From a virus: a stretch of 29,899 nucleotides of DNA. Positions 3,902 to 29,899 of the stretch are shown here, piece after piece; position 1 is the stretch's first letter; each line of letters begins with the position of its first letter. The position numbers and the translations under genes are program-made. A model generated the notes under the pieces. The model saw only the letters and a list, made by a program, of their open reading frames with translations. It searched no databases and was not told the DNA's origin. Location: the IMG/VR virus record IMGVR_UViG_3300000313_000009, positions 1 through 29,899 of that record, one strand, 5' to 3'.

Positions 3902-4676
3902 TACGTATCATCTCGATTGCTTCGCGAGTCATTTTTGCCTGTGGATTTTCATATGCATTGTTTTTGGTAAAATTATTTTTAAGAGGGAAGATCCCTTTCC
4001 AACTGTTCATAATACTTTGATTAAGTATTTCAATTTTTTCTGCATCATTGTCCGCAAGTTTATCAAGATTTGAAAGAAGTAAAGATATCGCCCGATCTGT
4101 CATCGGTGCCTTTATCTGCTTTCGCATTTTGACAAAGTCATTAAGAGATATCATAAGATTATTATTTGATGTGTAATCATCAAATGGATAAATCTTCTTT
4201 TTATTTATATCTTTCTTTGTCTCTAACTCTTTATCTGGTTCTTTCTCTTTCTCTTTCTCTTTCTCTGTGTTACCGATTGTTACAGTGCCGTTACATTGTA
4301 ACTCTTTTTCTTTTTGTCTATGCCTTCTAACCCTTGATGCACATGATGTTTCTGATCCTATGCTTTCTCGTGTTTGTGGCAAAGAATACTCGTTTTCTTG
4401 TCCTTTTTCTATAAATCCACATTTTTCTAAAAACAATAACGTTATTTCTACATTTTTAGGATCTTCGTCAATTTCTAAAGCAAGTTCTTCTGCAAAAGTA
4501 TCTTCGATTCCATCAAAATATATTTTACCGTTATCTTTCAAACTGATAAGTTGCATTTTTAAATAAATTATCGTGTATGTATCACCCCCTGCAATTCTTC
4601 TAAGTTTTTTTATTTCTTTTTGACTAAAAAAATCATTCTTTAATTTCAACCAGTAAAATCTTTTGTTGTCACTCAT
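3894..4676 (-). CDS. phage replisome organizer (N-terminal winged-helix domain)
   Basis: The first 110 residues match the phage replisome organizer N-terminal domain: RFYWLKLKNDFF, then IKKLRRIAGGDTYTIIYLKM and EELALEIDED, ending with the helix LLFLEKCGFIEK. Such initiators bind the phage origin and recruit the helicase. A charged linker (residues about 115-165) includes a Glu-Lys repeat coded by a hexanucleotide repeat. The C-terminal part (about 170-260) is helical and ends NSWKGIFPLKNNFTKNN, like the DnaD-type tail of related organizers. AAGGTGA precedes the ATG. The gene follows the HTH gene by 21 nt. The origin often lies inside such genes, though I see no clear iteron set. Confidence 0.85.
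   Translation of the reverse strand: MSDNKRFYWLKLKNDFFSQKEIKKLRRIAGGDTYTIIYLKMQLISLKDNGKIYFDGIEDTFAEELALEIDEDPKNVEITLLFLEKCGFIEKGQENEYSLPQTRESIGSETSCASRVRRHRQKEKELQCNGTVTIGNTEKEKEKEKEPDKELETKKDINKKKIYPFDDYTSNNNLMISLNDFVKMRKQIKAPMTDRAISLLLSNLDKLADNDAEKIEILNQSIMNSWKGIFPLKNNFTKNNAYENPQAKMTREAIEMIRNG
4241..4266. repeat. hexanucleotide repeat (CTTTCT)4+CT
   Basis: Four tandem copies of CTTTCT plus two bases, coding on the minus strand for alternating Glu-Lys in the linker of the replisome organizer. Because the unit is six bases, slippage would change linker length without breaking the frame. Confidence 0.85.
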
Positions 4677-5233: not shown

Positions 5234-5384
5234 TAGATTATTTTTATAATATATACATTATGTTTATATATTAAATGCCAATTAAAACTCCAAATTCGTT
5301 GCAGGTTAACTTTTTATTTAATTTTGGTATACTTTATTGTGTATATAAAAAAGTTTCATTATACGTTGTTTATAGAAGCTTTAA

Positions 5385-24428: not shown

Positions 24429-25565
24429 TTATGCCGGAATGTATTGCATAAGAAATCTGGGATTGTCAGGATGATTGTAATCATCATCAAGAACAGATGC
24501 TTTGATCTGAAACGTTTCAAAGTCTTCTGCAATCTGATTCATATCGCCTGTAGGAGATAATTTTACTTTCCACCAGTCAATAACTTTTCTCTTACCATAT
24601 GTCGGATCGCCAACAAAATACAAATGAGCTTTGATATTCGATTTGCTGCCACCAACTGTTGGAATTGTCTTTGCCGGAACTGTATAAGAAATTAAGCAGT
24701 TTGTTCCAGCATCAAGAATCGAAGCAGTATCCTTTGTATAGTATACACCGCCAGCAAGTTGAGGTAATGTATAATCAAAATCAGCTCCTTTGACAAGATT
24801 AGTCGTTGCCGAAGCTGCAACAACAGAGAATTTAAAGATATCATCAAGCTCAAAGTATCCACTTACTCCTACATCAAATGTAGCAGTTATACCGTTTTCA
24901 AGCGTCATAGCACCGGAAACGATGGTAACATCTGCACTGTAAGTTCCTGCTGATCCTTTTTTCCACTGGAATTTAGCTCCGGTTAAAGCGCCAGCAGTTG
25001 TATTCATTGCTGTGATCTTGATATAATAATCTGCATTATCAGTACCGGAATAAGTTCCGCCTGTCGTAATTGTTCCTGTCGATGCAATAGATCCGCCCTG
25101 TGTCGATAAAGTAGCAGCACCAACGCTTGCCACTGTCGGATCAATTTTCTTTATCGTTAAAGCTGTTACTCCAAGATAAGGTATTCTGAAATATCCGGCA
25201 GGTGTAAGTGTAACAGGTAAATCAGTTACGGTTTTTGCTGCCTGGGTAGTTGTTCCGGTTTCACCATATAACGCAAGCGCAACGTTAAACGGTGAATATT
25301 CCTGCAATGTAATGGTTAAAGTCTGATCGAGTTTAACATCGCATTCAGCATATTTTGTTCTTGATGCTTTCATTGAATTATATTTTGAAACAGTTGTTGG
25401 GGTTGTGTTCATTGCAGCACTTTCGGTATTGCCTAAAGGTCGCATTACACCTTCAACACCATCATCATCAATGAGAGCGACATAATACATGCCAGCGCCG
25501 ATTTCAAGCAAATCAGAGCTAGGCGAATTATTTGCGAATCGTTGTAAATCAAATTTGAAATTCAT
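24429..25565 (-). CDS. major tail (tube) protein (378 aa)
   Basis: Tube subunit, recognised by its position (tail completion gene, tube, chaperone, tape measure) and composition. It starts MNFKFDLQRFAN, an opening often met in structural proteins of Firmicutes phages. The N-terminal part (YYVALIDDDGVEGVMRPLGN) and the C-terminal part (KVIDWWKVKLSPTGDMNQIA) probably build the tube fold. The middle (about 165-290) is rich in Gly, Thr and Ala with a YYIKITA strand, probably an inserted outward-facing domain. I chose ATG 25565, with AGGAATT upstream; a TTG one codon earlier is less likely. Confidence 0.75.
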   Translation of the reverse strand: MNFKFDLQRFANNSPSSDLLEIGAGMYYVALIDDDGVEGVMRPLGNTESAAMNTTPTTVSKYNSMKASRTKYAECDVKLDQTLTITLQEYSPFNVALALYGETGTTTQAAKTVTDLPVTLTPAGYFRIPYLGVTALTIKKIDPTVASVGAATLSTQGGSIASTGTITTGGTYSGTDNADYYIKITAMNTTAGALTGAKFQWKKGSAGTYSADVTIVSGAMTLENGITATFDVGVSGYFELDDIFKFSVVAASATTNLVKGADFDYTLPQLAGGVYYTKDTASILDAGTNCLISYTVPAKTIPTVGGSKSNIKAHLYFVGDPTYGKRKVIDWWKVKLSPTGDMNQIAEDFETFQIKASVLDDDYNHPDNPRFLMQYIPA

Positions 25566-26038
25566 CAATAATTCCTACTTTCTTTCCAATTTATTTGTAA
25601 AGCTTGTGAGAATGTGGCCCACGGAGTACCAAACGATATTCCGCTTATAGCGGTTGATATGTTAACCCCGATAGAAACGGAATCCTTTATATCTAAAGGC
25701 AATCTAAGAAATATGTTTGTCATATTTTCTTGTATTGCAGAAATTTGTTTACATACTTTTTCTGTATCTTTTTCATCTGTACGATAATACACGTCAATAT
25801 AAACAATTATATTACCATCGCGCATTGGCGCAAGTTTTATATCGCCCTCGCCTTGTGCCGATATTTCAATTGAATTTTTTTTTGAATTTCGTGTTGATCC
25901 AAGACTGCCGATGATAATATCCCAATCATGAAAGACTGTATTACCATCTATACCATTGATTATATTACCATCTACATCAATACAATTAATTAATGTTTGC
26001 TGAATTTGCTTACAAACCGGAAACCATTTGAAAATCAT
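25565..26038 (-). CDS. probable tail completion / terminator protein (157 aa)
   Basis: A 157-residue protein that directly precedes the tail tube gene and overlaps it at TGA/ATG. The segment DIKLAPMRDGNIIVYIDVYY, and helices EKVCKQISAIQENMTNIFLR, fit the alpha/beta outline of tail terminator proteins, which cap the tube and join it to the head. Sequence recognition alone is weak; the call relies mostly on gene order. AGAGGGTG precedes the ATG. Confidence 0.5.
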   Translation of the reverse strand: MIFKWFPVCKQIQQTLINCIDVDGNIINGIDGNTVFHDWDIIIGSLGSTRNSKKNSIEISAQGEGDIKLAPMRDGNIIVYIDVYYRTDEKDTEKVCKQISAIQENMTNIFLRLPLDIKDSVSIGVNISTAISGISFGTPWATFSQALQINWKESRNY

Positions 26039-27191: not shown

Positions 27192-28298
27192 TTATTCTAT
27201 GAATCTGCAAGCGAGTTCCGGCTGAATCGTCTTGAAACCGCAAAGCATATCAATCGATACTGTGTCAGTTTTATGAACGTTATCGTATGACTGAACAACG
27301 CGAAGGCCAAGACCGTTATAATTGATATATGAAGACAGTGCATTCCCCATTGGCTGCGCAAGCTGTCGACTAACCATTGCAAAAGCGTGCTGGTGGAAAG
27401 CAACATTAGCTGTATGAGCACCAACAATCGTAATCGTTGCACCAGAAGCCCACGCAACCGCGTTAGAAGGTGAGAACGTCAATGTTCCTGCCGTTGCATT
27501 AGGTGTGCTATCAGCGGAAACGACATATTTATTTGGATCACCTGCTACCGTAAATATATCGCCCTGTTTAATTACTCCGCTCATGCCTGTACCTGCAAAA
27601 GATATCGTTGAATTACCTATAGCAAGTGTTGTAGAAGTCGCTACAGCAGTTCCGGCAAATGTCGAGCCGATTTCAGCCACGTTCTGATCCATAAAAATAT
27701 CAAATCCGTATTTACGACCAAGCGAAGCATTTGTCATTGCGTCAGTCGTGCCAACCTGATTGTATGATGTAAACTGTTCAAGAGCTAAAAGTTCTTGTTC
27801 CTTAATCGGATCGATGACAAGTGAACGACCATCCATCGGCACTTTGTTCTGATTCATTACTTTGCGTAAAAGCGTAATATCAGCAGCAGAAGTCGTTGCT
27901 GCACCTTTAGTTCCAATGTAATAAGGAACCGATTTTACCTGATCGAGAATGCGTTTATCGATGTCTTGTGCAAATGCCCTCATAGCTGGCTGCAAGAACT
28001 GTGTGCTGAAATCAGAAATGTTCAATGCCATATCGCGAGACGTTACTGCAAAAGAAACATCAAGCAATTTATCCATAACGACAGGAACACCAGTTTCTTT
28101 TGCGTCCTGAACAACAATTTCAGTCGAGAATTCTTTTACTTCGAACGTTGTAGGTTTTCTGATTGTGATTGTATCGCCAACATTGGCAAATTCCATAGAA
28201 TAATCGTGGTACACCATCGGAAACATTACCATGTTATTCTGCAAAACCATCAAAGATTCTCTTGCTATGATCGATGGTGTTAAAAGTGTATTAGCCAT
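27192..28298 (-). CDS. major capsid protein, P22 coat-like (368 aa)
   Basis: Coat protein of the HK97-fold P22 branch. It begins MANTLLTPSIIARESLMVLQ; then DTITIRKPTTFEVKEF and DVSFAVTSRDMALNI build the N-arm and E-loop region. Between about 205 and 300 lies an insertion with GVIKQGDIFTVAGDPNKYVV, reminiscent of the P22 I-domain. The end returns to the coat core (AMVSRQLAQPMG, then SIDMLCGFKTIQPELACRF). It follows the scaffold gene. AAGGAT precedes the ATG, and a strong terminator follows. Confidence 0.85.
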   Translation of the reverse strand: MANTLLTPSIIARESLMVLQNNMVMFPMVYHDYSMEFANVGDTITIRKPTTFEVKEFSTEIVVQDAKETGVPVVMDKLLDVSFAVTSRDMALNISDFSTQFLQPAMRAFAQDIDKRILDQVKSVPYYIGTKGAATTSAADITLLRKVMNQNKVPMDGRSLVIDPIKEQELLALEQFTSYNQVGTTDAMTNASLGRKYGFDIFMDQNVAEIGSTFAGTAVATSTTLAIGNSTISFAGTGMSGVIKQGDIFTVAGDPNKYVVSADSTPNATAGTLTFSPSNAVAWASGATITIVGAHTANVAFHQHAFAMVSRQLAQPMGNALSSYINYNGLGLRVVQSYDNVHKTDTVSIDMLCGFKTIQPELACRFIE

Positions 28299-28329: not shown

Positions 28330-29064
28330 TTACTGTATTTTTCCTTCTTTTCTGCACTTGTTATATTCTTCTTGACTCATATTTTCAACGTCAAGCATTT
28401 TAACTTTGCCACCGTAAGAACTTCCCGATCCGGGCCGTCCGGGATTACTTACAAAGTCAGGGTTCGTTTCGAGAAATGACTTAATTCCTTCGGAAAGAGG
28501 AACATCGCCCGATTCAGTTGCATATAGGAAACCTTCACCAGATTCATCAAGTTTAATGTTTCCTTCAACAATTTTAGATAAAAGTTGTGGCTTAATTGCG
28601 TTATTTGCAACAAGTTCTTTTGTGATCGCGTTTTCACGCATGTATGAAATACGCTTCTGTTTTTCCGCTTCAGCCATACTTTTATTGTCGACTGCTTCTT
28701 TTTGCAACTGCTTCAGTTGTCTTTGTGATTCATTGATTTTTGCATTTAATTCAGCAACGACATTGTCTGAACTGCCGTCTTTGCTTGCTGCTTTCTTCTG
28801 CGTCTTCAATTCATCAATTTTTGCAGCGATGGTAGATTCATCCGCCTGGGATTCATCATCTACAGATAGACCAAGATGAGTCATGAGAGCATTCATTGTC
28901 AATTTTGTTTTATTTGTTGCTTCTTCCTGTTCTCTCAATCGTCTGCGAAGACTAGCTGATTCATCATTAGTCTTTTTTTGTTTGGCAAACATAGTTTCCA
29001 ATGCGACCGCTTCTTCTTCGCGCCCTTCTTCTCTCGATTTTGCAATCATTTCTTCTAATGTCAT
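28330..29064 (-). CDS. capsid scaffold protein (244 aa)
   Basis: A long charged coiled coil (residues about 5-180: MTLEEMIAKSREEGREEEAV, then LRRRLREQEEATNKTKLT and QRQLKQLQKEAVDNKSM) followed by a short glycine-rich hinge (PGRPGSGSSYGGK) and a C-terminal basic tail MSQEEYNKCRKEGK. This is the build of phage scaffold proteins, which place the coat and leave before packaging; the C-terminal tail usually binds coat. I chose ATG 29064 because GGAGGAGAG precedes it; the longer frame reaches into the promoter. The neighbouring coat gene confirms the role. Confidence 0.8.
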   Translation of the reverse strand: MTLEEMIAKSREEGREEEAVALETMFAKQKKTNDESASLRRRLREQEEATNKTKLTMNALMTHLGLSVDDESQADESTIAAKIDELKTQKKAASKDGSSDNVVAELNAKINESQRQLKQLQKEAVDNKSMAEAEKQKRISYMRENAITKELVANNAIKPQLLSKIVEGNIKLDESGEGFLYATESGDVPLSEGIKSFLETNPDFVSNPGRPGSGSSYGGKVKMLDVENMSQEEYNKCRKEGKIQ

Positions 29065-29119: not shown

Positions 29120-29148
29120 ATTATAGTATATTTTATATAAAAGCACAA
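29120..29148 (-). promoter_or_regulatory. promoter of the scaffold-coat unit
   Basis: On the minus strand TATAAT (29120-29125) stands 17 bp after TTGTGC (29143-29148). It lies 55 bp before the scaffold ATG and immediately downstream of the ncRNA terminator. Confidence 0.62.
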
Positions 29149-29171: not shown

Positions 29172-29207
29172 GCAAAAAGAGCCTAATATTTCATAGGCTC
29201 TTTTTGC
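29172..29207. terminator. strong bidirectional intrinsic terminator
   Basis: Perfect 14-bp stem GCAAAAAGAGCCTA with TAGGCTCTTTTTGC, 8-nt loop. It ends the short transcription unit at 29172-29396, and could also stop transcription entering from the other side. Confidence 0.85.
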
Positions 29208-29396
29208 ATCGATAATGCTAGAACATTGTCGATCAATCTATTCAGGACTATTTGTGTGTAGTCCTTACTTGGGAGGGTGCACTCTGGATGTGAAGCGCAC
29301 AGTAAAAGCAGCAATCAATTATATTAATTGAGTTTTTATGTCTGCTCTCAATAGCAGTTTACTGCTTTTACCGCGCGTTTCAAACGCGGTTATCCT
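29172..29396 (-). ncRNA. candidate structured non-coding RNA of about 225 nt
   Basis: Between a consensus promoter and a 14-bp terminator there is no credible ORF, but almost every base can pair. Helices on the minus-strand RNA: ACCGCG/CGCGGT at 29370-29390; an outer stem GGTAAAAGCAG-type (29302-29311 with 29362-29371, 10 bp) closing a junction with two inner hairpins at 29316-29330 and 29342-29357; a 7-bp stem at 29277-29300 that needs a G-U pair on this strand; AGGACTA/TAGTCCT at 29244-29265; and a 9-of-10 stem at about 29208-29233. No known RNA family is recognised. It could be an sRNA or the leader of the scaffold gene. Confidence 0.65.
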
Positions 29397-29402
29397 TTGA
29401 AT

Positions 29403-29432
29403 ATTATATTACATTGAGTTATCAACTGTCAA
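29403..29432 (-). promoter_or_regulatory. consensus promoter of the candidate RNA (TTGACA-18-TATAAT)
   Basis: Minus strand: perfect -35 TTGACA (29427-29432) overlaps the stop codon of the upstream gene; perfect -10 TATAAT (29403-29408) follows after 18 bp. The predicted start site is close to 29396-29394. Confidence 0.8.
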
Positions 29433-29899
29433 GATTTAGCAGTGAGTTCCGCAATTTTAGCAGTTAACTTTGTTTTAAGTTTTGCAATTTCGCTTGAAAT
29501 GGCTGCCTGACTTACTTCAATTGCAAGCCATTTAAAATCAAGCGCAACGGCTCCCCAAAAATCAGTATTTTTTCTTGCATCAAGAACAAGCTTCTGATAT
29601 TTGTCAATTCTTGAATTGATATTTGTCTGGACAGAGTTTACTTCATCGGTAAATGCTGTAACGACTTCTTTTTCAAGTGTCAAAGAATCGATCAGTGATT
29701 CAATTGATGAAATACCAGCTTCTATTTCACTTTTAATTGTGCTCCATGCTGTACTCAAAGTATCGTCTCCATTCGCCGCTTCTGCAATTTCAGTCGTAAT
29801 TTTTGTAGCCGTATCGGTTGCGGCTGCGGTTGCTTCAGATACCGTTTTTGTGATAACCTCGGCTGCTAGGACAATTTCAAGTTCTGCTGAATATCCATC
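29429..29899 (-). CDS. C-terminal part of an alanine/threonine-rich helical protein (cut by window edge)
   Basis: The frame is open from the window edge to a TGA at 29429, at least 156 residues. A TTG at 29758 could act as an internal start but has no clear ribosome binding site; I take the whole as one protein entering from outside. It is almost entirely helical: AEVITKTVSEATAAATDTAT, repeated Ala/Thr/Ile heptads, and a basic ending SEIAKLKTKLTAKIAELTAK. Located just before the scaffold, it may be part of a portal-proximal or minor head protein, but no family can be assigned. Confidence 0.6.
   Translation of the reverse strand, partial: DGYSAELEIVLAAEVITKTVSEATAAATDTATKITTEIAEAANGDDTLSTAWSTIKSEIEAGISSIESLIDSLTLEKEVVTAFTDEVNSVQTNINSRIDKYQKLVLDARKNTDFWGAVALDFKWLAIEVSQAAISSEIAKLKTKLTAKIAELTAKS

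Follow-up and report, generated by a model that had tools for sequence, protein, structure and literature searches.

The locus and its genomic setting

The window, that is, the whole stretch of 29,899 bp of DNA analysed here, and a second contig, IMGVR_UViG_3300000313_000011, belong to a single phage. Both ends of the window (29818-29899 and 1-72) overlap this partner, by 82 and 72 identical bases respectively, which indicates that the two contigs make up one circular or circularly permuted phage of 58,480 bp. A third contig, IMGVR_UViG_3300001213_000021, shares 10,945 identical bases with the window, among them the RNA described below. Copies of positions 85-228, 859-1021, and 1651-1989 of the window, with 79-87% identity, are found in the other contig of the phage, and represent duplicated small accessory genes.

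The terminase is SPP1-like and related to those of Brevibacillus and Bacillus phages, the portal is of the SPP1 type, the coat protein is of the P22 type, and the tail protein has its best relatives in phages of Gram-negative bacteria. The combination of terminase, coat, and tail protein suggests, as a guess from the sequence, that the host may be a diderm member of the Bacillota.

The feature lies on the minus strand, immediately downstream from a lysis cassette that runs in the order holin, amidase, a 161-aa protein, and a 268-aa protein with a carboxypeptidase-regulatory-like domain (CarboxypepD_reg). The 3' part of this fourth and last gene occupies positions 29429-29899 of the minus strand, and the gene then runs off the window (L003:3064-3870). 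Downstream are the putative scaffold gene (28330-29062, minus strand, with its ATG at approximately 29062), which is 38% identical to its counterpart in a sister phage, and the gene of the major capsid protein, of the P22 coat family (27192-28298, minus strand). The earlier note, made from the sequence alone, had placed the feature between a head gene and the scaffold; the scaffold is indeed downstream, but the supposed head gene upstream is the one that ends the holin/amidase lysis cassette.

Promoter, extent, and coding content

A promoter of the form TTGACA-18-TATAAT is found at 29403-29432 on the minus strand and, as had been claimed, the match is perfect (12/12), with the -35 box overlapping the TGA stop codon (29429-29431) of the upstream gene. 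This is the only 12/12 TTGACA/TATAAT site in the 58,480-bp genome, whereas some 0.07 would be expected on that strand from the base composition. The terminator follows 225 nt past the promoter, with no gene in between, and the predicted non-coding RNA is thus approximately 222 nt long (29174-29396, minus strand), if transcription starts about 7 nt after the -10 box. The longest reading frame wholly inside it has 43 codons and a TTG start, with no Shine-Dalgarno sequence visible by inspection, in accordance with the description of this stretch as devoid of a credible reading frame over some 225 nt. The locus therefore has its own promoter, its own terminator, and no reading frame, as expected of an independent small RNA (sRNA) gene.

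Folding and termination

The minus-strand RNA folds to -76.2 kcal/mol (z -8.4), with no shuffled sequence folding as well, and is the strongest-folding of 540 window/strand segments, exceeding its shuffles by -36 kcal/mol in comparison with a mean of -1.8 (sd 4.9). The plus strand folds equally well (-79.9 kcal/mol, z -7.8), so the strand is set by the promoter, and not by the folding.

The central element is a three-way junction (29296-29377, minus strand), with an outer stem formed by 29377-29359 and 29314-29296 (core pair probability 0.96) and arms at 29357-29342 and 29331-29315. The junction and its closing stem, which had been proposed from the letters, are borne out by mean pair probabilities of 0.86-0.98, and the same applies to the GGACUA arm, a hairpin of the form AGGACUA-CACACAAA-UAGUCCU (29244-29265, minus strand), and the AUCGACAAUG arm, the hairpin AUCGACAAUG...CAUUAUCGAU (29208-29233, minus strand). 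Two further helices are less certain: a 5' hairpin, CGCGUU-UGA-AACGCG (29374-29388, minus strand; probability approximately 0.37), which excludes the extension of the outer stem, and an alternative 6-bp stem, GUGCGC/GUGCAC, with one G-U pair (29277-29300, minus strand; approximately 0.48). The molecule is balanced between two states, one with the outer stem extended to 19 pairs and the other with the 5' hairpin plus the 29300-29277 stem, at -76.2 and -76.1 kcal/mol, respectively. Two competing folds had been anticipated through AGCAG-UAAA-CUGCU, and two balanced folds do exist, but they involve a different pair, the AGCAG-UAAA-CUGCU hairpin having a probability of 0.01. The 29300-29277 stem had also been taken as support for the strand; its G-U pair is indeed unique to the minus strand, yet carries little weight alone, given that the plus strand folds as well.

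The intrinsic terminator (29174-29205, minus strand) consists of a stem followed by U5; the stem has 12 bp, rather than the 14 bp previously counted, and its near-symmetric sequence could also act on the plus strand. With the RNA cut short within the terminator, no upstream segment pairs with the 5' arm of the terminator as an antiterminator, which speaks against riboswitch-type attenuation.

The folding of both strands to an equal extent is what DNA palindromes would produce, and could mean that there is no functional RNA, the locus being a strong promoter-like sequence with inverted repeats that act as DNA elements, such as operators or an insertion junction, or that arose by chance. The restriction of the sequence to a single lineage (see below) fits this reading, but the promoter, non-coding length, and terminator are all found on the same strand, correctly ordered and spaced, and the outer stem has three G-U pairs on the minus strand, which makes this reading very improbable. 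By contrast, a real independent RNA gene is likely.

Searches for families and homologues

The window has no Rfam 15 match at the gathering score, as the earlier note had supposed in assigning the RNA to no known family, and the top hit to the region without any score cutoff (E 0.11) lies on the opposite strand and falls well short of its threshold. The anatomy of the locus, together with the absence of Rfam matches, gives good support to the central claim of an independent, undescribed structured RNA gene. The blastn searches against phages recovered only identical copies of the same phage, with nothing but chance matches of 19-35 nt up to E 10, and those against plasmids recovered no homologue of the RNA. 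Pattern searches of viral contigs for the DNA of the stem and of the C-rich stretch found nothing beyond the identical copies. Some of the neighbour and structural proteins have relatives in viral contigs, none of them with the RNA, and no relative was found in genome contigs. A covariance model (R2) run over 68 loci, 33 whole records, and 44 further loci recovered no other member, the best other match (E 0.34) being at the level of chance. As R2 has no member in any relative, only the identical copies, the RNA is known from one phage lineage.

Two further candidates were rejected. An antisense RNA to the phage's own genes is contradicted by the longest perfect complement, of 13 nt, while shuffled sequences reach 14, and there is no tRNA or tmRNA in the window.

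The site in related phages

The sister record (G007, 67.5 kb) is syntenic with the window phage from the terminase to the tail, with identities of 60% for the terminase, 57% for the capsid, and 38% for the scaffold. Its order is Tad2-like gene, terminator, short leader, and scaffold, without the RNA, while the window phage has some 3 kb, comprising the lysis genes and the RNA, between the homologous Tad2-like gene and the scaffold. The RNA is at the downstream edge of this block, which is absent from this place in the sister. The flanking genes thus adjoin in the sister, as around a moron, although this applies to the lysis-plus-RNA block as a whole, and not to the RNA alone; the RNA has its own promoter and terminator, and the comparison of base composition gives 38.8% G+C versus 35.0%. 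Other relatives carry different small genes at the site before the scaffold, which gives this place the appearance of an accessory-gene site.

The Tad2-like (Thoeris anti-defence 2) gene of the window phage is located at L003:630-1085, and is conserved beside the scaffold in the sister phage. The sister record also encodes a tyrosine integrase (G007:46-597, minus strand), a family with no match in the two contigs of the window phage.

An accessory site of this type could also harbour a protein-binding or decoy RNA, either a counter-defence RNA or one that acts as a sponge for an sRNA or an RNA-binding protein of the host; the active part would then be the fold, rather than the C-rich seed described below. 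The compact, very stable fold, the Tad2-like anti-Thoeris gene a few genes upstream, and the variation of the region between relatives are all consistent with this role, which is nevertheless unlikely, given that the RNA matches no described family and has no known partner.

The position beside the scaffold and capsid genes had also prompted the suggestion of a packaging-related RNA, and is the sole support for an RNA like the phi29 packaging RNA (pRNA). This suggestion finds no support, as the phage has SPP1-like terminase subunits, an SPP1-type portal, and a P22-type coat, rather than a phi29-type machine, its packaging genes have homologues in the sister phage, which lacks the RNA, and there is no Rfam match; this role is scarcely credible.

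A different hairpin is common to the relatives directly before the scaffold Shine-Dalgarno sequence (L038, at approximately 4150-4190; L039; L041 and L043, both at approximately 5337-5366), in each case 3' of a terminator. The stems, GUUCUUAGUU/AGUUAAGAG, GUUCCUAGUU/AGUUGGGAG, and GUUUCCAGUU/AGUUGGAAG, differ by changes that look compensatory, and the hairpin may be a leader element of the scaffold gene.

A second unit before the holin

A terminator scan of the intergenic DNA of the genome found eight terminators, two of which are preceded by a promoter matching at least 11/12 positions, with no intervening gene. One is that of the RNA studied here, and the other belongs to a unit directly before the holin, outside the window (L003:1326-1418), with the promoter TAGACA-17-TATAAT and an RNA of approximately 58 nt, which has a classic sRNA layout, formed by a hairpin, the single-stranded ACCACCUUCUUUU, and the terminator. 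The two units have no clear sequence similarity. In both, the -35 box overlaps the preceding stop codon, the RNA carries an anti-Shine-Dalgarno stretch rich in pyrimidines, and the terminator is followed by a promoter-like site. One of these sites is TTGTGC-17-TATAAT, which separates the terminator of the larger RNA from the scaffold gene (29120-29148, minus strand), and the other is at L003:1420-1448 (plus strand). Both fit the pattern TTGNNC-16-CTAWAAT, which occurs nowhere else in the 58.5-kb phage, a rarity that is suggestive but does not constitute a test, since the pattern was defined after both sites had been seen. It is a possible late promoter.

The main rival to a separate RNA gene is a terminated leader of the late head and tail operon, resembling the PR'-tR' arrangement of lambda. 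In such a leader, the polymerase would start at this promoter and stop early at the terminator, and an antitermination signal or protein would allow it to read through into the scaffold, capsid, and tail genes, the short RNA being a by-product or having a second role, like StxS, a stable sRNA from the PR'-tR' interval (PMC7873438). The unit does lie directly before the structural genes, with the PR'-tR' succession of promoter, short RNA, and terminator before late genes, and the second promoter, short RNA, and terminator before the holin mean that both late modules start alike. However, each terminator is followed by a promoter-like site, from which the scaffold could be transcribed independently of the promoter of the RNA, and a separate RNA gene is favoured over a leader. 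In addition, the truncated RNA offers no upstream antiterminator segment for the 5' arm of the terminator, and the relatives have a terminator followed by a short leader before the scaffold, without any unit of promoter, RNA, and terminator. A leader of this type, while less probable than a separate RNA gene, would be the next most likely reading; the earlier note had listed both an sRNA and a leader acting on capsid expression.

The paired units provide a direct, testable idea of late-gene timing. In its most elaborate form, two RNA-only modules, each with a promoter, a terminated RNA with an anti-Shine-Dalgarno stretch, a terminator, and a second promoter, would bracket the lysis cassette, and the larger RNA would be a two-state switch that times lysis versus head assembly in trans, which appears quite unlikely.

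The C-rich stretch and the proposed role

The RNA contains a C-rich, anti-Shine-Dalgarno-like stretch, CACCCUCCCAAG (29268-29279, minus strand), which is partly single-stranded and represents a candidate seed; CACCCUCCC is partly exposed, with an unpaired probability of 0.24-0.70 (computed for CCCUCCC). Within the phage, it is predicted to pair best with the ribosome-binding site of a gene for a 157-aa protein (25565-26038), at -27.8 kcal/mol, in comparison with -19.4 +/- 2.5 kcal/mol for the best pairing of shuffled seeds. When the core CACCCTCCC is fixed and the flanks are shuffled, 5/100 seeds pair as well, and the median pairing across all the ribosome-binding sites is only weakly better than that of shuffled seeds (7/100 as good). 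Pairing with the genes of the sister phage reaches -26.0 kcal/mol, even though the sister has no such RNA, so the seed behaves as a generic anti-Shine-Dalgarno sequence, with no specific target established.

The feature is best explained, with a probability of about 0.5, as a phage-encoded sRNA gene with a sigma70-type promoter, a structured RNA of approximately 222 nt, an intrinsic terminator, and a candidate for pairing at ribosome-binding sites. The host RNA polymerase would transcribe the RNA from the sigma70-type promoter, and the partly exposed CACCCUCCC would pair with the Shine-Dalgarno regions of phage or host mRNAs, blocking their translation, while the two balanced folds may hide or expose CACCCUCCC. 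Base pairing at ribosome-binding sites is the most likely role, albeit a tentative one. The RNA is probably a lineage-specific phage regulatory RNA, of a kind already known, with a sequence and fold that match nothing described. On the sequence of one phage, it is a strong candidate for an RNA gene; if true, a phage that is uncultured and probably infects Bacillota would have a complete RNA gene placed between its lysis and head modules.

Comparison with known systems

The phi29 packaging RNA is also a structured phage RNA near the head genes, but serves a different packaging machine, and the RNA described here has no family match.

The C-rich motifs of the staphylococcal IsrR and the Bacillus FsrA pair with Shine-Dalgarno sequences (PMC9410917). 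The RNA described here shares with them a C-rich stretch suited to such sequences and an intrinsic terminator, but its candidate seed is only partly exposed, and it is encoded by a phage.

In one group of lambdoid phages, StxS is an sRNA derived from the terminated PR'-tR' transcript, and binds a ribosome-binding site (PMC7873438). In both cases, a late module opens with a promoter, a short non-coding RNA, and a terminator. In the window phage, however, the terminator is followed by a promoter-like site, no Q or qut system is identified, the host is probably a member of the Bacillota, and no sequence relation to StxS or PR'-tR' is shown.

Phage sRNAs in moron sites are known from lambdoid prophages, where the moron-borne anti-sRNAs AsxR and AgvB are 51-60 nt long, bound by Hfq, and arranged in convergent pairs (PMC4104026). 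The RNA described here likewise lies close to the lysis genes and the late region, at a site of accessory genes, although it is much longer, at approximately 222 nt, and contains a three-way junction. If true, it would add a case from outside the enterobacterial prophages, the source of the phage sRNAs compared here.
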